NCBI GenBank assembly: GCA_029250945.1
Contig: JAQXEG010000030.1
Span: 1 to 64,000 of the forward strand
DNA length: 64,000 nucleotides
Direction of reading: 5' to 3'
DNA from: Yoonia sp.
Lineage (GTDB): Bacteria > Pseudomonadota > Alphaproteobacteria > Rhodobacterales > Rhodobacteraceae
Both the position numbers and the translations under genes were made by a program. This document shows, piece by piece, positions 12,948 to 40,865 of the stretch (the first letter of the stretch is position 1; each line of letters opens with the position of its first letter). The notes below the pieces were generated by a model. The model was not told where the DNA came from. It searched no databases and worked only from the letters and a program-made list of their open reading frames with translations.

Positions 12948-13928
12948 CTATTTGCCCCCTTTTTTCATCATCGGCATGCCTAGCTTGGCGGGATCAATGT
13001 CCGCCGCGGGCGCGTCAGTGCGTGTCGCGACCCGCAACTTGGCCGAACGCGAGCGTGGGTTTTCTGCCAATTCTTGTTCGTCCGGCCCGATAGCCTTGCG
13101 TTTCTTGACCGTGAATGCGGCGACGTCCTGAACCACCTCTGGCGCGTAACGGTTGGCGTTTGCCATGCCGCCAGACCGCGCCTGCAGGAACCGTTTGACC
13201 ATGCGATCCTCGACCGAATGAAAGGTCACAACGGCTAATTGTCCGCCGGGTTTCAGCGCGCGCTCTGCTGCCATCAGGCCCATGGCCAATTCGCCGTATT
13301 CGTTGTTCACCGCGATGCGCAGCGCCTGAAACGTGCGGGTTGCGGGATGCGATTGGCCGGGCTTTGACCGAGGCAAACAGCCCTCGACGATCTTGGCCAG
13401 CTGTAATGTGGTCGTCAGCGGACGGGCGGCGACAATCGCGCGCGCAATCCGCCGCGATGCCCGTTCTTCGCCGTAAAGATAGATGATAGATGCAATCTCG
13501 GCCTCATCCGCCGTGTTGCAAATATCCGCCGCCGATTGGCCAGACTGCGACATGCGCATATCCAGCGGCCCGTCGCGCATGAACGAAAATCCACGCTCTG
13601 CGATATCCAGCTGCATTGACGATACGCCAAGATCAAGCACAACGCCGTCCAGATCGGACGCATATTCATCAAGCTTGGAAAACGTGCCTTCGACGCATTC
13701 AATGCGGTCGCCAATATCAGCAATCCATTCGGACGCCATTTCAAACGCCAGCGGGTCACGGTCCACGCCGATCACCTTATCCGCACCGGCAGTCAACAAC
13801 TCGCGCGTATAGCCGCCGTTGCCAAATGTGCCGTCCAGCCAGACCCCTCCCACGGGGGCCACAGCCGCAATAATAGGGCGGATTAGAACGGGAATGTGGG
13901 GGGATGCTTCAGTGGCAGCTGACATCAA
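12948..13928 (-). CDS. rsmH: 16S rRNA (cytosine(1402)-N(4))-methyltransferase RsmH
   Basis: SAM-dependent methyltransferase (formerly MraW) that modifies C1402 in the ribosomal decoding centre. The 326 residues include [31 protein letters not shown]-type SAM-binding fold ([12 protein letters not shown], about residue 33). They also include [10 protein letters not shown] (about 98), [14 protein letters not shown] (about 112) and [11 protein letters not shown] (about 240), all typical of RsmH. It lies 6 nt downstream of mraZ and abuts ftsL, the standard start of a dcw cluster. Confidence 0.97.
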
Positions 13929-13934
13929 ATCGCC

Positions 13935-14432
13935 CTACCCTACATCCAAAAGGGAAAGCGGATCGAAGTCATCAGGCATCTCGTCCAACCATGATGTCAT
14001 GTCCTCGGCCACGGTATCGTTAAAGGTCTCGGCCTTCCAAATCTCAAAGTGATCACCGACGCCACGGAAATACAGCTCACCGTCTTTAAGGCCCAGCTTT
14101 TCGCGCTGCCGGATCGGCATGACCGTGCGGCCGTCTTTGTCGATCTCCATTTTCATGGATTGACCGATATAAAGGTGGGATAGCTTTTTCTTGGCGGGCG
14201 ACCCTTTTGGCATGGCGTTGATGCTGTCGACCAAATCGGCGAACTGCGACACGGTATAAACGTGGAGCTCTTTCTTCAGATGATCACCATACAACAAATA
14301 CATGCGGGGGTTCAGGCCATCGGTCCAATCAGGGTCTTGGGATTCGAGCACGCGACGAAAATCGGCAGGGATCGACATGCGCCCCTTACCATCCACCTTT
14401 TGAGTGTGTTCGCCTGTAAAACTCAGAACCAC
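13935..14432 (-). CDS. mraZ: MraZ, transcriptional regulator of the dcw cluster
   Basis: DNA-binding protein of 165 residues with two SpoVT/AbrB-like half domains (about 7-55 and 90-135). Conserved elements are DGKGRMSIPADFR in the first and DKDGRTVMPIRQREKLGL in the second. In other bacteria MraZ binds the region upstream of its own operon and controls it. The start codon is GTG at 14432 (GTG-GTT-CTG-AGT), preceded by an A/G-rich GGGA stretch. About 45 nt upstream is a strong hairpin with a T-run, so expression is probably set by leader termination as well as by the promoter. Confidence 0.95.
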   Translation of the reverse strand: MVLSFTGEHTQKVDGKGRMSIPADFRRVLESQDPDWTDGLNPRMYLLYGDHLKKELHVYTVSQFADLVDSINAMPKGSPAKKKLSHLYIGQSMKMEIDKDGRTVMPIRQREKLGLKDGELYFRGVGDHFEIWKAETFNDTVAEDMTSWLDEMPDDFDPLSLLDVG

Positions 14433-15506: not shown

Positions 15507-16580
15507 TCAGGCCATGCCGCCGTCAATGAAACGGCGCGCCAGCGTGCGGTACGCATCGGCCATTGGACCGTCGCCCGCCGCAATCGGCGTGCCTGCATCA
15601 CCAGCCAGACGTGTATCAAGGTCAATCGGCAACGCCCCAAGGAACGGCACACCGATCTTATCCGCCTCGGCGGCGACACCGCCGTGGCCAAAGATATGCG
15701 CCTCATGCCCGCAAGACGGACAGACATATGTCGACATGTTTTCGATCAGACCCAGCACGGGGGTGCGCAAGCTGCTGAACATATCAAGCGCCTTGCGGGC
15801 ATCCAGCAACGCCACATCCTGCGGTGTCGATACAACCACGGCGCCGGTCAGCTCGGTTTTTTGGCAAAGCGTCAGCTGCACGTCACCAGTGCCTGGCGGC
15901 AGATCAACGATCAGCACGTCCAGTTCGCCCCATTCAACCTGTCCCAGCATCTGCTGCAACGCGCCCATCAACATCGGCCCACGCCAGACAACCGCCTTGT
16001 CAGGATCAACCATCAGGCCAATCGACATCATCGTAACGCCATGGGCCTGCAACGGGATGATCGTTTTGCCATCGGGGGAACCGGGGCGTTTGTTCACGCC
16101 CATCATGCGCGGCTGGCTGGGGCCATAAATATCGGCATCCAGCAGACCAACGCGCCGCCCCTCGCGGGCCAAGGCCACGGCAAGGTTGGATGACACGGTC
16201 GACTTGCCCACACCACCCTTACCCGACCCGATCGCCAGAATGCGGTCAACACCAGCAACCTTGGCAGGACCCGCCTGCGGCGTCGGGTGGCGCCCAACCT
16301 TCAGCGATGGCGGCTCTGGTGCCTTTGCGGCGGGACCGTGAGCCGTCAAGACGACAAACACTGATGTGACACCAGGCAATGCGGCAACCGCGGCCTCTGC
16401 TGCGGCGCGTTGCGGGTCCATCTTGGCGGCAAGCCCTGCATCGGGCGCCTCAATCACGAAACGGACCGATCCACCATCGACACCGACCGCACGGATCATA
16501 TCGCGGCTGACCAAATCGCCACCATCGGGCAACTGCAATTTTGCCAGCGCGGCCATGATGTCGTCTTTTGTAATTGCCAT
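15507..16580 (-). CDS. apbC: Mrp/ApbC/NBP35 family iron-sulfur cluster carrier ATPase
   Basis: P-loop ATPase that carries and delivers Fe-S clusters in the cytoplasm. There is an N-terminal DUF59/MIP18-like domain (about residue 1-75). The deviant Walker [18 protein letters not shown] lies at about 118 and [12 protein letters not shown] at about 150. The cluster-ligand CPSCGHE (CxxC) lies at about 270, in [20 protein letters not shown] use the ATG at 16580 ([12 protein letters not shown]), where homology begins; eight further residues are possible to 16604. The protein has 357 residues. It is followed after 2 nt by a GNAT gene. Confidence 0.93.
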
Positions 16581-16745
16581 GATGTTGGGCCCCGTTCGCT
16601 TCACGCCTTATCTATGCGCTACATGTCGCAGGTTTTGCAAAATCGCAAGGTGACAAAATGTGCGGGTTTGTTAACCAACAATCACATGACCTTAGGTCAA
16701 TTACACCCATGCAATTGCTGCATAGCGGCATTGAGGAATTGTGAA

Positions 16746-16773
16746 TTGTGCAGATGCAGCATTCGCCTACATA
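16746..16773 (+). promoter_or_regulatory. Candidate promoter of the DUF1127-hairpin transcript
   Basis: TTGTGC (16746-16751) and TACATA (16768-16773) are separated by 16 nt and end 53 nt before the DUF1127 start. In R. sphaeroides the homologous CcsR locus is driven by alternative heat-shock sigma factors (RpoHI/RpoHII). I cannot assign the sigma factor from this sequence alone. Confidence 0.4.
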
Positions 16774-16826
16774 AGGGTCACAACAAAGCGGAATACGCCG
16801 CAGGCGCAAAATGAAAGAGATACACA

Positions 16827-17042
16827 ATGGCTTATATCACAGACACAAACACTTCCGGCATCACATTCGGTCAGCGCCTGACAACACTGCGCGAAAAATT
16901 CGCAACAGCTCGCACACAGCGCAAAGTGTACACCACAACGCTGAACGAACTGGAAAACCTGTCCAACCGTGATCTGGCTGATCTTGGCCTCGCACGGTCC
17001 GGCATCAAAGCCGTCGCACTGCAAGCAGCTTACGGCAACTAA
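16827..17042 (+). CDS. DUF1127 protein, CcaF1-like
   Basis: A 71-residue basic protein. Its C-terminal half TLNELENLSNRDLADLGLARSGI (about residue 38-60) is the arginine- and leucine-rich DUF1127 core; the N-terminus is polar and unlike it. In R. sphaeroides the homologous 71-residue protein CcaF1 (RSP_6037) is encoded directly upstream of the CcsR sRNAs and acts in RNA metabolism. Here too the stop codon is followed after 8 nt by the first CCTCC hairpin. The likely role is a small RNA-binding stress factor. The family call is firm; the function is by analogy. Confidence 0.88.
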   Translation: MAYITDTNTSGITFGQRLTTLREKFATARTQRKVYTTTLNELENLSNRDLADLGLARSGIKAVALQAAYGN

Positions 17043-17050
17043 TTCACTGA

Positions 17051-17086
17051 TTTGATGCGTACTCCTCCCTGTTTAATCGCATCAAA
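17051..17086 (+). ncRNA. CCUCC hairpin 1
   Basis: TTTGATGCG (17051-17059) pairs perfectly with CGCATCAAA (17078-17086); the loop holds CTCCTCCC. Confidence 0.82.
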
Positions 17087-17089
17087 CCC

Positions 17090-17127
17090 GGTCTGGCCCA
17101 TCCTCCTCCCTGTAGATGGATCGGACC
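17090..17127 (+). ncRNA. CCUCC hairpin 2
   Basis: GGTCTGGCCCATC pairs with GATGGATCGGACC using a few G-U pairs; the loop holds CTCCTCCC. Confidence 0.82.
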
Positions 17128-17135
17128 ACTGGAAA

Positions 17136-17166
17136 GGCGGCACCCACCTCCTCCCCGGGTGTCGCC
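17136..17166 (+). ncRNA. CCUCC hairpin 3
   Basis: GGCGGCACCC (17136-17145) pairs with GGGTGTCGCC (17157-17166); the loop is ACCTCCTCCCC. Outer CTGG/CCAG may extend the stem. Confidence 0.82.
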
Positions 17167-17183
17167 ACCACCAGATACCAGTT

Positions 17184-17216
17184 TCGGCCCTGCCACCTCC
17201 TCCCCGGTAGGTCCGA
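17184..17216 (+). ncRNA. CCUCC hairpin 4
   Basis: TCGGCCCTGCC pairs with GGTAGGTCCGA, with G-U and mismatch tolerance; the loop is ACCTCCTCCCC. Confidence 0.8.
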
Positions 17217-17226
17217 GAATACCGCA

Positions 17227-17259
17227 GCGATCGGCTCACCTCCTCCCCGAGCAGATCGC
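17227..17259 (+). ncRNA. CCUCC hairpin 5
   Basis: GCGATCGGCTC pairs with GAGCAGATCGC around ACCTCCTCCCC; ten of eleven positions pair. Confidence 0.82.
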
Positions 17260-17270
17260 AACGCGATGAC

Positions 17271-17310
17271 GCGGCGCATGTGTTTTCTCCTCCCGAGACG
17301 CAGGTGACGC
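17271..17310 (+). ncRNA. CCUCC hairpin 6 (weaker stem)
   Basis: TGTGT pairs with ACGCA next to the CTCCTCCC loop, and GCG/CGC further out. The middle of the stem is poorly paired, so this copy may be decaying or fold differently. Confidence 0.6.
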
Positions 17311-17321
17311 GGAAAATATAC

Positions 17322-17359
17322 GGTCATGCCCACCTCCTCCCGGGCATGGCCGTTTTTTT
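17322..17359 (+). terminator. CCUCC hairpin 7, also the terminator of the array
   Basis: GGTCATGCCC (17322-17331) and GGGCATGGCC (17342-17351) form a stem with an ACCTCCTCCC loop. Seven T follow (17353-17359). The last sRNA copy thus doubles as a rho-independent terminator for the whole transcript. Confidence 0.9.
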
Positions 17360-17430: not shown

Positions 17431-17514
17431 ATGCGGCTTCTTCCCCATATATTTCTGGCACTTGCGGGTGGGCTGTCGTTGGCGAGCTTTCTGACGTCCC
17501 AAACCCTAATTTAG
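17431..17514 (+). CDS. Possible 27-residue membrane peptide
   Basis: An ATG at 17431 opens MRLLPHIFLALAGGLSLASF and six further residues, one hydrophobic helix with a basic start. A GGA lies about 9 nt upstream. It is downstream of the hairpin array terminator and its stop overlaps the stop of the convergent Lrp gene. No family is recognised. It could be chance, although the clean helix is suggestive. Confidence 0.25.
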   Translation: MRLLPHIFLALAGGLSLASFLTSQTLI

Positions 17515-17963
17515 GCGCGGGTATCTTTGGGTGACCCCATGACCATGTAGCTGGTGATCGACCGCACATGGGGGACCGTACCCAAGACGTCCATGTGAAA
17601 TGCCTTGTAGGACGGCAAATCTGCCGCCTCCACCCGCAGCATATATTCAAATGCACCAGCAACATTATGGCATTCCGCGACCTCCGGGGCGGCTTGCATC
17701 GCGTGCTCAAATCCCTCTTGTGCGGCTTTCGTATGCTCGGCCAACCCCACGGTAACATAGACAACATAGGCCCGCCCCGTCTGTTCGGGATCCAGCCGCG
17801 CGCGATAGCCCTTAATCACCCCCGCACGTTCCAGTTCCTGCACACGCCGCAAACAGGCAGAGGGTGACAATCCCACCGCCCCAGCGAGCATCAAGTTACT
17901 GATCCGGCCATCGCGGGACAGAACGCGCAATATACGTTGTGATATTTGACCAATCTTGGTCAT
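17511..17963 (-). CDS. Lrp/AsnC family transcriptional regulator
   Basis: The 150 residues have an N-terminal helix-turn-helix (ISQRILRVLSRDGRISNLMLAGAVGLSPSACLRRV, residue 6-40), with the AsnC signature in AVGLSPSACLRRVQELERAGVIKGY. A C-terminal ligand-binding RAM domain follows (VTVGLAEHTKAAQEGFEHAM to SITSYMVMG). The start at 17963 (MTKIGQISQ) fits the family; longer in-frame openings read intergenic sequence. It is divergent from a LysE-type exporter with 72 nt between them. This is the common arrangement in which the Lrp regulator controls amino-acid export in response to its ligand. Confidence 0.92.
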   Translation of the reverse strand: MTKIGQISQRILRVLSRDGRISNLMLAGAVGLSPSACLRRVQELERAGVIKGYRARLDPEQTGRAYVVYVTVGLAEHTKAAQEGFEHAMQAAPEVAECHNVAGAFEYMLRVEAADLPSYKAFHMDVLGTVPHVRSITSYMVMGSPKDTRA

Positions 17964-18035
17964 GGATTGCACAAATACTGTGAATTCACGCAACAACGCA
18001 AACACATTGCGCCCAATGCCGCCTAATGTTGCGGC

Positions 18036-18635
18036 ATGACATATACAATCTTCATCTCGCTCGTGGGATTCGCATTTGCGTCCTCCATCACACCTGGCCC
18101 CAACAACCTGATGCTGATGGCGTCGGGCGCCAACTATGGGCTGCGGCGCACAGTGCCGCATATGCTGGGGATCAGCCTAGGCCACGCGTTCATGGTGTTC
18201 ATGGTCGGAGTTTTACTGCTGCAAATCTTCGAAAGCTATCCGATCCTCAAAACGTTGATGAAAACCGCCAGCGCCGCCTATATGCTTTGGCTGGCATGGA
18301 AAATCGCCAACGCGCTCCCGCCAGAGGCCGCCAAGGTCGAAGGCAAACCCTTTACCTTCCTGCAAGCCGCCGCATTCCAGTGGGTCAATCCAAAGGCGTG
18401 GTTCATGGCCATCACCGCGATCAGCGCCTATGCGCCACAATCGCTGGGCGTGGCTGGCGGTGCCGCGCTCGTCGCAGTGATCTTTGCCTCCGTCAATCTA
18501 CCATCGGTGACCGTTTGGGCATGGCTCGGCGTGCAGGTCCGCCGTTTCCTTGGCACCGCGAACCGCCTGCGCACATTCAACATCACAATGGCTGTCCTGC
18601 TAATCGCATCTCTTTACCCGATGCTAACCCACTGA
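18036..18635 (+). CDS. LysE/RhtB family amino-acid exporter
   Basis: Inner-membrane translocator of 199 residues with about six helices. The family signature ASSITPGPNNLMLMASGANYGLRR lies at about residue 15-38 (GPN motif). GxxxG-like segments and WVNPKAWFMAITAISAY follow at about 115-131. LysE/RhtB proteins export amino acids such as lysine, arginine, threonine or homoserine; the substrate cannot be told from the sequence. The adjacent divergent Lrp/AsnC gene is the probable regulator. Confidence 0.9.
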   Translation: MTYTIFISLVGFAFASSITPGPNNLMLMASGANYGLRRTVPHMLGISLGHAFMVFMVGVLLLQIFESYPILKTLMKTASAAYMLWLAWKIANALPPEAAKVEGKPFTFLQAAAFQWVNPKAWFMAITAISAYAPQSLGVAGGAALVAVIFASVNLPSVTVWAWLGVQVRRFLGTANRLRTFNITMAVLLIASLYPMLTH

Positions 18636-40399: not shown

Positions 40400-40459
40400 G
40401 ATCTCCTAGCCAGACTCCCCGTCTGGATTGGGTTGCATTTACGACGCTTACGCGCCGTT

Positions 40460-40640
40460 GATGGCAGGTCTCCTGACTTGCGGATCAGCGTTTGCCCGAA
40501 CCTTCCCAAACCCGATCGGGTTCAGTGGTACGCATCGGGGTCACTCACCGCCTACAGTTGCGGGGGCAGTTACGGAATTGGCGCGTGTTCGCTCTTCCTT
40601 ACCGTATTCCCTTTTCATCCCAGCCGCATATTCGACGACT
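40460..40640 (-). promoter_or_regulatory. Cobalamin (B12) riboswitch
   Basis: The minus strand contains the hallmark blocks of the adenosylcobalamin aptamer in order. They are a GGGAA/GGTAAGG region, TGCCCCCGCAACTGTA (the B12 box core), CCACTGAACC, GGGAAGG and the 3' AGTCAGGAGACCTGCC. It precedes DUF1636 and the ABC importer by about 135 nt, so B12 should repress their expression. A hairpin plus AGGAG at 40400-40426 is the likely expression platform. Confidence 0.92.
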
Positions 40641-40865
40641 GGAAACCATCCCCCACACTGTGAAATATACGCGTGAAATCGTCAAGAAAAGATCGCGACA
40701 GATCAGGCCCGTTCTGCGGCAAAACGGGCCATGCGTTGTCTGGCCACCGATAGTAGACACCTTTTTACAACAACCGCCAGCAGATCACGGGCGCAGGTGA
40801 TGTCTGCTTTTGTTATCATGCACCCCGTTCTATCGCGCAGCAACAAAGCGATAGGGCCGGATAAA

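Follow-up and report, generated by a model that had tools for sequence, protein, structure and literature searches.

The array described here lies in a window of 64,000 nucleotides (the whole stretch of DNA analysed) from a Yoonia genome, and has the layout of a short operon. On the plus strand, a promoter block conserved in an alignment of the genus (16709-16733) carries a TGCA-N6-GCAT sequence at 16710-16723 (‘box 1’, similar to LysR-type boxes of the LsrB/VtlR kind); a second copy (‘box 2’, 16749-16762) follows 39 bp downstream and overlaps the -35 region of a putative core promoter at 16745-16772 (TTGTG at 16746-16750, about 16 nt, then CTACAT at 16767-16772). The gene for a 71-residue, CcaF1-like DUF1127 protein comes next (16827-17042; PF06568, 29.9 bits against a cut-off of 23.3); its stop codon ends 19 nt ahead of the first motif of a run of seven predicted stem-loops (17051-17359), the last of which is backed by seven consecutive thymines (17353-17359). 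The neighbours assigned by Pfam are an Mrp/NUBPL-type ATPase (15507-16604, minus strand), an Lrp/AsnC regulator (17511-18161, minus strand) and a LysE-type exporter (18036-18635, plus strand). Elsewhere in the window, open reading frames at 12948-14432 resemble mraW and mraZ by eye only, and a cobalamin riboswitch is found at 40446-40665 on the minus strand (127.7 bits).

Seven copies of CTCCTCCC are present on the plus strand of the array, starting at 17062, 17103, 17148, 17197, 17240, 17287 and 17334 (start-to-start spacings of 41, 45, 49, 43, 47 and 47 nt), out of 20 copies in the whole genome (2.53 Mb in 48 contigs). Every copy forms the loop of a predicted hairpin, with folding energies between -10.8 and -24.8 kcal/mol, so that CUCCUCCC is displayed in all seven loops. 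The predicted hairpins extend over 17051-17086 (motif 17062-17069), 17090-17127 (motif 17102-17110, with one extra lone pair within the loop of the fold), 17136-17166 (motif 17147-17155), 17182-17218 (motif 17196-17204), 17227-17259 (motif 17239-17247), 17270-17311 (motif 17287-17294) and 17320-17353 (motif 17333-17341), and the first-pass annotation had placed them correctly. The same annotation had described the loops as identical, which is true of CTCCTCCC in all seven copies and untrue of the first C, replaced by A or T in copies 1 and 6. The cuckoo motif CCUCCUCCC is likewise found within the predicted loops, as the full 9-mer in five copies and as CTCCTCCC in seven; by chance, the full CCTCCTCCC would be expected 0.27 times in the window, and 100 shuffles never produced as many as five. 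As had also been proposed, the last copy has the form of a terminator stem, hairpin 7 running directly into the T7 run, and the final hairpin of an array is followed by a T-run at 29 of 30 loci from the genus and 26 of 30 from the family.

The stems of these hairpins are unrelated between copies and yet paired within each of them. When arms were exchanged in silico among the copies of the window, the 5' arm paired best with its own 3' arm in six of seven cases (mean -20.3 for own arms versus -9.3 after swapping); only in copy 2 does another arm, the 3' arm from copy 7, pair slightly more strongly with the 5' arm, leaving the copy's own arm second of seven. Across the genus set, which includes the window, the own arm was the best partner in 169 of 187 copies, where 29 would be expected. 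Covariation was examined in an alignment of 28 genus arrays (the window's included), at 38 pairs from hairpins 3, 4, 5 and 7 that appear in the consensus RNAalifold gave for that alignment; hairpins 1, 2 and 6 were excluded because the alignment is out of register there, and their support consists of the fold and the arm swap only. Standard pairs occupied 97.0% of cells, which are not independent since several of the genomes are close relatives, and sliding the register reduced the paired fraction to 25-43%. Changes on both sides were seen in 24 of the 38 pairs (9 of 12 in hairpin 3, 3 of 7 in helices 2 and 3 of hairpin 4, 6 of 7 in helices 4 and 5 of hairpin 5, and 6 of 12 in hairpin 7, where 99.7% of cells are paired), and the observed values were reached by none of 500 shuffles. 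Stems that fail to covary in relatives had been named beforehand as the result to watch for; in the four hairpins tested, the stems do covary. Variable but base-paired stems are thus found in the arm swap for all seven hairpins and in the covariation for hairpins 3, 4, 5 and 7, and the selection for RNA structure that the first-pass annotation had read from the stems is supported (by covariation for four of the seven). The compensatory changes, the loss of pairing in slid registers, the specificity of the arms and the T-run behind the last copy together speak against a repeat acting at the level of DNA (iterons or protein-binding sites, with no role as RNA), for which the regular direct spacing of 41-49 nt can be cited; we regard the probability of such a repeat as negligible.

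A short DUF1127 gene directly upstream on the same strand, a feature of the CIN1 systems and part of the original description of the locus, is found in the window and, within 130 nt of the array, in 27 of 30 genus loci and 27 of 30 family loci; the distance from the gene to the first exact motif is 19-26 nt in 21 of 27 genus loci and 19 of 27 family loci. A different arrangement was met in Yoonia litorea (L160, 1256-1500, and L096, 5280-5560, which agree in sequence), where the boxes, the promoter with its -10 region and the seven hairpins are all kept and the intervening DUF1127 gene is missing. In L160, hairpin 1 starts about 40 nt past the -10 region, and an Mrp-type reading frame adjoins the array as it does in the window. 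No DUF1127-type reading frame was found between promoter and hairpin 1 in either locus (the locus only being considered), and tblastn with the DUF1127 protein of the window returned no match in the L160 or L096 locus. The profile used for DUF1127 was made from stop-to-stop stretches and weakly matches translated promoter DNA (in L160, E = 4e-4 with filters off), and therefore only strong matches were counted. Since the array persists in L160 and L096 without an adjacent DUF1127 gene, the hairpins seem to be kept for their own sake, and the locus indicates that an array can exist as a unit of promoter plus hairpins, like NfeR1.

These loci bear on the idea that the hairpins are a cis element only, a structured 3' untranslated region that terminates and stabilises the DUF1127 mRNA. 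The position of the copies behind the gene and the last hairpin with its T7 would suit such an element; the boxed promoters with seven hairpins and no intervening gene (L160/L096), the small loci (two or three copies) that lack a DUF1127 match on their strand (L193, L166 and L168) and the constancy of an anti-Shine-Dalgarno (anti-SD) loop, which a mere stabiliser would not need, make it very improbable. The two- and three-copy loci just mentioned lie near 1500-1590 of their stretches (L193, G006:C13; L166, G401:C1; L168, G403:C2), and a further one is found at G403:C10:129341-129434; G403:C10 and G006:C13, from different genera, hold near-identical copies of the TTGGATCAACG type. A three-copy array on the minus strand of L020 (1500-1585) has a DUF1127 match (41% identity, tblastn) behind it. 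The genome of the window itself holds a second DUF1127 gene (C25:23137-23226, L219), in whose 3.1-kb locus there is no CTCCTCC.

Comparison with known RNA families gave scores below the thresholds of the models. The ar14 model of Rfam (RF02344) matched the window at 47.8 bits (E = 1.5e-7; cut-off 58.8) and the CcsR1 model (RF02791) at 27.5, 17.8 and 17.0 bits (cut-off 65.3). Among ten loci searched, the ar14 cut-off was passed by four rhizobial loci (six matches, 99.9-121.7 bits) and by L203, L097, L160 and L057 (59.2-74.4 bits, L160 of the same genus reaching 59.4), and was missed by L207 and L212; an ar15 search of the window's own genome gave no match, a negative that carries no information since no control genome matched either. 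Because the scores lie below cut-off, the array was filed with the cuckoo/CIN1 kind on its loop, its stems and its DUF1127 gene, and with neither Rfam family. The kinship with cuckoo and CcsR RNAs first proposed for it accordingly holds for those three features and falls short in the covariance-model search, with ar14 and with CcsR1 alike. Judged by its sequence features, the locus is a CIN1/cuckoo-type anti-SD hairpin array.

Several described systems share parts of this arrangement, as far as the cited texts describe them. The CcaF1-CcsR1-4 locus of Rhodobacter sphaeroides (CIN1), compared here through published descriptions rather than locus sequence, likewise has a 71-residue DUF1127 protein, CcsR RNAs in the 3' untranslated region and a terminator (PMC10253847); it is described with an RpoHI/RpoHII promoter (PMC10253847), whereas LysR-type boxes are seen in the window. 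NfeR1 of Sinorhizobium (ar14) has the same loop motif, hypervariable stems and an upstream TGCA-N6-GCAT, but is described with three hairpins and a sigma-70 promoter, compared with seven hairpins here (PMC10746234). The cuckoo RNA family (Reinkensmeier and Giegerich 2015) shows the same combination of free stem sequence and fixed loop, in RNAs described as having 2-4 hairpins (PMC4504443) as opposed to seven in one run. AbcR1 and AbcR2 (ar15) also have anti-SD motifs and transporter targets, with LsrB control of AbcR1 (PMC8844928), but constitute a different RNA family from the array in the window. Neither an array of this length nor tandem boxes at a DUF1127 array turned up in our literature searches; part of this may already be described in the papers on cuckoo, CcsR and CcaF1.

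The first-pass annotation had called seven hairpins an expanded version of the four CcsR RNAs, a claim that does not survive a count of relatives. Allowing one mismatch, seven copies are present in 25 of the 29 genus arrays that were read, the remaining four holding 6, 6, 5 and 4 copies (the last read over a shortened stretch), and six motif pairs on one strand (equivalent to seven exact copies) were counted from the table in 33 of 56 genus genomes; the main array of G403 has nine motif pairs, these places being among the matches listed, as far as G421. Individual copies also keep their positions: among 16 genus arrays with seven exact copies, the best match lay at the same position in 1286 of 1680 comparisons, with a mean identity of 0.76 at the same position versus 0.56 at others, although copy 2 of the window found its best match at the same position in none of the 15 other arrays. 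The four R. sphaeroides RNAs have about two hairpins each, as opposed to the seven hairpins of the window; because a CcsR-type RNA is itself two hairpins, CcsR1-4 amounts to about eight, and seven is no expansion. An ‘expansion from four’ compares hairpins with RNAs, and was rejected on the copy counts and the two-hairpin structure of CcsR.

Of the 394 genomes of the family, 171 hold one or more runs of three spaced copies, and 223 hold none when the exact motif is required. At least five motif triples (equivalent to seven unbroken copies) occur in 46 of the 394 genomes, and 38 exceed the window, in a count that sums arrays and strands, includes one genome whose control value is high (G311) and misses widely spaced arrays. 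Seven hairpins are therefore the norm of the genus and common in the family, an ordinary size among relatives. The copy numbers are given for one locus per genome (216 arrays were listed, duplicates included), and matches outside the alphaproteobacteria (for example in Streptomyces and Clostridia), which resemble short-period repeats, were excluded from them. The longest arrays read are those of G165, with 26 copies, and then G300, with 20; in G165, which shows a three-unit period, an identity of 90% or more is reached by 50 of the 325 copy pairs, and several arrays of 11-16 copies contain no pair that similar. On this internal repetition, some of the long arrays are recent tandem amplifications. 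Arrays of 15-26 hairpins occur in G165 (L189), G300 (L196), G366 (L190) and G050 (L207), and in several of them groups of two or three hairpins are themselves repeated in tandem, which points to recent amplification.

The promoter region is conserved as well. Throughout the genus a block of the form ATGCA-N5-TGCAT-(A/G)GC.GCATTG stands upstream of DUF1127, followed by ATTGTGCA and a TaCAT-like -10 sequence, and the TTGTG-about 16-CTACAT of the putative core promoter is conserved in the window's genus. At least one TGCA-N6-GCAT was found upstream of 26 of 27 genus DUF1127 loci, 26 of 27 family DUF1127 loci (taken from the first 30 family loci listed rather than by random draw) and five of nine large arrays, where base shuffles would give 0.02-0.07 boxed loci per set; the four large arrays without any such box include the array of 26 copies. 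Among the 27 DUF1127 loci of each set, a match of the box 1 type is present in 26 from the genus and 23 from the family, and a pair of boxes separated by 39-40 bp in 22 and 17, respectively. In 120 named stretches, the box accompanies 19 of 32 with a DUF1127 match and 10 of 88 without one (some of the non-alphaproteobacterial matches being among these 88), and a similar GCAT/TGCA block can be seen by eye upstream of L193, L166 and L168, which have no DUF1127 match. The 14-mer as such is not rare in the window (nine found, 6.2 expected), and three of the nine lie at the array promoter.

The same TGCA-N6-GCAT is described as the LsrB site of NfeR1, at about -72 to -57 (PMC10746234; the box is also given as -72 to -60). 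Box 1 of the window falls at about -70 to -57, assuming a start near 16780, which is an estimate. The strict VtlR box (GCAT-N3-TG-N3-T) was matched exactly in only three of 27 genus, one of 27 family and none of nine large-array loci; in the window it is missed by one mismatch, the sequence reading GCATAGCGGCATT. The upstream TGCA-N6-GCAT of the LsrB/VtlR regulon is present in the window, and the boxes resemble LsrB sites by motif only. The occurrence of a putative regulatory box shared with the NfeR1 promoter at DUF1127 arrays is new here, as is the relative in which boxes and array persist after loss of the DUF1127 gene.

It had further been suggested that the seven RNAs are released one by one, which is doubtful. 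The R. sphaeroides RNA is described with two stem-loops and the motif in each (PMC3927594), and the Rfam consensus of CcsR1 shows two hairpins. In 43 arrays of at least five copies (from the family set, the large arrays and the named relatives, with the window's genus absent and duplicate records possible), the spacing alternates in 252 of 299 places, whereas 2000 shuffles averaged 197 such places and never exceeded 230, as if the units were pairs of hairpins. In the window, the CcsR1 model touches three two-hairpin pieces, all below cut-off (hairpins 6-7 at 27.5 bits, 2-3 at 17.8 bits with E = 0.13, and 4-5 at 17.0 bits with E = 0.21), and leaves hairpin 1 alone; the spacings of the genus (e.g. 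43, 44, 50, 42, 41, 51) could also suggest a grouping of 3+3+1. A linker motif, present in no more than 43 of the 385 linkers and never in two adjacent ones (5.0 such cases expected, some shuffles also giving 0), was not used as evidence for cleavage sites.

The loop sequence UCCUCCC is complementary to GGGAGGA, and this complementarity extends to the ribosome-binding sites of a particular class of genes. In the genome of the window, GGGAGGA-N3..14-ATG occurs at 25 places, against four for the reversed pattern; five were dropped (two antisense within the array, one duplicate, one without a reading frame and one with a reading frame of 6 residues). Ten of the 20 genes that were then scanned encode solute-binding proteins (four DctP, three SBP_bac_1, and one each of Peripla_BP_6, Peripla_BP_4 and TctC), and the others include one DctQ and one PufQ. 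The control pattern AAGGAGG-N3..12-ATG occurs at 18 places, of which eight were dropped (a reading frame of 64 residues unscanned, the rest below 50 residues, two being one site), and none of the 10 scanned genes encodes a solute-binding protein. All six DctP matches of the genome have GGGAG before the start codon judged likely, and four of them GGGAGGA; in the window, two of 52 crudely called genes are preceded by GGGAG. In the larger-array genome G165, solute-binding proteins account for seven of 28 scanned GGGAGGA genes (30 loci sampled from 121 places, two short reading frames dropped, with no control set). In the window's own genome, pufQ (L232, C22) carries the site GGGAGGAGCCAAATG, which makes a gene of photosynthesis eligible as well; CcaF1 affects puf mRNA in R. 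sphaeroides.

Because the 16S rRNA tail was not found in the genome, predicted duplexes with the loop were compared with those of an assumed 16S tail sequence. On the six DctP sites, the predicted pairing ranges from -9.5 to -17.1 for the loop and from -7.4 to -11.8 for the assumed tail; the loop is the stronger partner on all six, and by at least 2 kcal/mol on five, as opposed to four of 50 window genes. These numbers also bear on an alternative in which the loops imitate the 3' end of 16S rRNA, compete for all strong Shine-Dalgarno sites and damp translation broadly under stress, in place of silencing a defined regulon. The anti-SD core within the loop, the abundance of GGGAGGA in all 394 family genomes and the 13 of 50 window genes whose predicted duplex with the loop is at -9 or below are in keeping with such mimicry, but the bias of GGGAGGA genes to solute-binding proteins, the advantage of the loop over the tail at DctP sites and the silencing of defined targets in rhizobial relatives (PMC10746234) render it unlikely. 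The density of GGGAGGA sites did not differ with detection of an array (44 versus 56 genomes, p = 0.24, in 100 of the 394 genomes; medians of 18.0 and 17.3 per Mb with and without a detected three-copy array), and its rank correlation with copy number in those 100 genomes was 0.17 (p = 0.10). With sites equally dense in genomes lacking a detected array, the target signal is independent of the array: GGGAGGA is a family-wide feature that makes genes eligible as targets, without showing that the array acts on them.

The published relatives provide the precedents for what the array may do, as far as the cited texts go. CcsR1-4 are described as being cut from the ccaF1 3' untranslated region by RNase E with CcaF1 (PMC10253847, PMC8625941, PMC7866481), and the published CcsR target is flhR (C1 metabolism) rather than a transporter (PMC8307010), which counts against the explanation preferred below. 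For NfeR1, redundant motifs are described that silence mRNAs by covering the ribosome-binding site, and the two transporter targets confirmed with reporters both encode periplasmic components (PMC10746234). A sponge role, already raised by the first-pass annotation, would have the array mainly titrate a protein (DUF1127/CcaF1 or Hfq) or rival another anti-SD RNA, with little direct silencing. Many equal loops would suit titration, CcaF1 affects CcsR maturation (PMC10253847), and CcsR RNAs interact with Hfq (PMC8307010, PMC7866481). Yet the constant part of each hairpin is the loop, which is complementary to mRNA sites, the loops of NfeR1 act directly (PMC10746234), and L160 keeps its array without a neighbouring DUF1127 gene; a decoy is quite unlikely on these grounds, and the rhizobial precedent favours direct silencing of mRNAs.

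The explanation we prefer, and hold with moderate confidence, is that the locus is a stress-regulated operon of a DUF1127 gene and small RNAs, of the CIN1/cuckoo kind, whose loops would silence the mRNAs of solute-binding proteins; silencing of transporter translation under stress is the likely function of the array. From its relatives we infer transcription, an activator, processing and silencing, as follows. A single transcript would begin upstream of the 71-residue DUF1127 gene and end at hairpin 7, probably under an activator of the LsrB/VtlR LysR type acting at one or both TGCA-N6-GCAT boxes. With help from the DUF1127 protein, RNase E would release small RNAs, each with one to three hairpins, from the 3' untranslated region, and their CUCCUCCC loops would cover ribosome-binding sites resembling GGGAGGA and block translation. 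The targets would chiefly be genes for the solute-binding proteins of TRAP, ABC and tricarboxylate transporters, and redundant loops would raise the dose.

The LysR-type boxes, the relative without DUF1127 and the range of hairpin numbers are the more interesting observations to come from this locus. They allow a broader proposal, which we put forward only tentatively: that the anti-SD arrays of the Rhodobacteraceae and the rhizobial NfeR1/AbcR RNAs may belong to one LsrB/VtlR-type regulon, in which tandem LysR boxes 39-40 bp apart would drive arrays with a DUF1127 gene, arrays that lack it and stand-alone arrays, and in which copy number (from 3 to 26) would be an evolvable dose of a single silencing loop aimed at the ribosome-binding sites of solute-binding proteins. 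The shared promoter box links the CcsR system of purple bacteria with the LsrB-NfeR1 system of rhizobia, and Yoonia litorea, whose hairpins adjoin the promoter directly for want of a DUF1127 gene, provides a natural intermediate. Hairpin number, steady in the genus and reaching 26 in the family, makes dosage by copy number testable, and the solute-binding proteins of TRAP and ABC transporters become a concrete proposed class of targets for the marine relatives.
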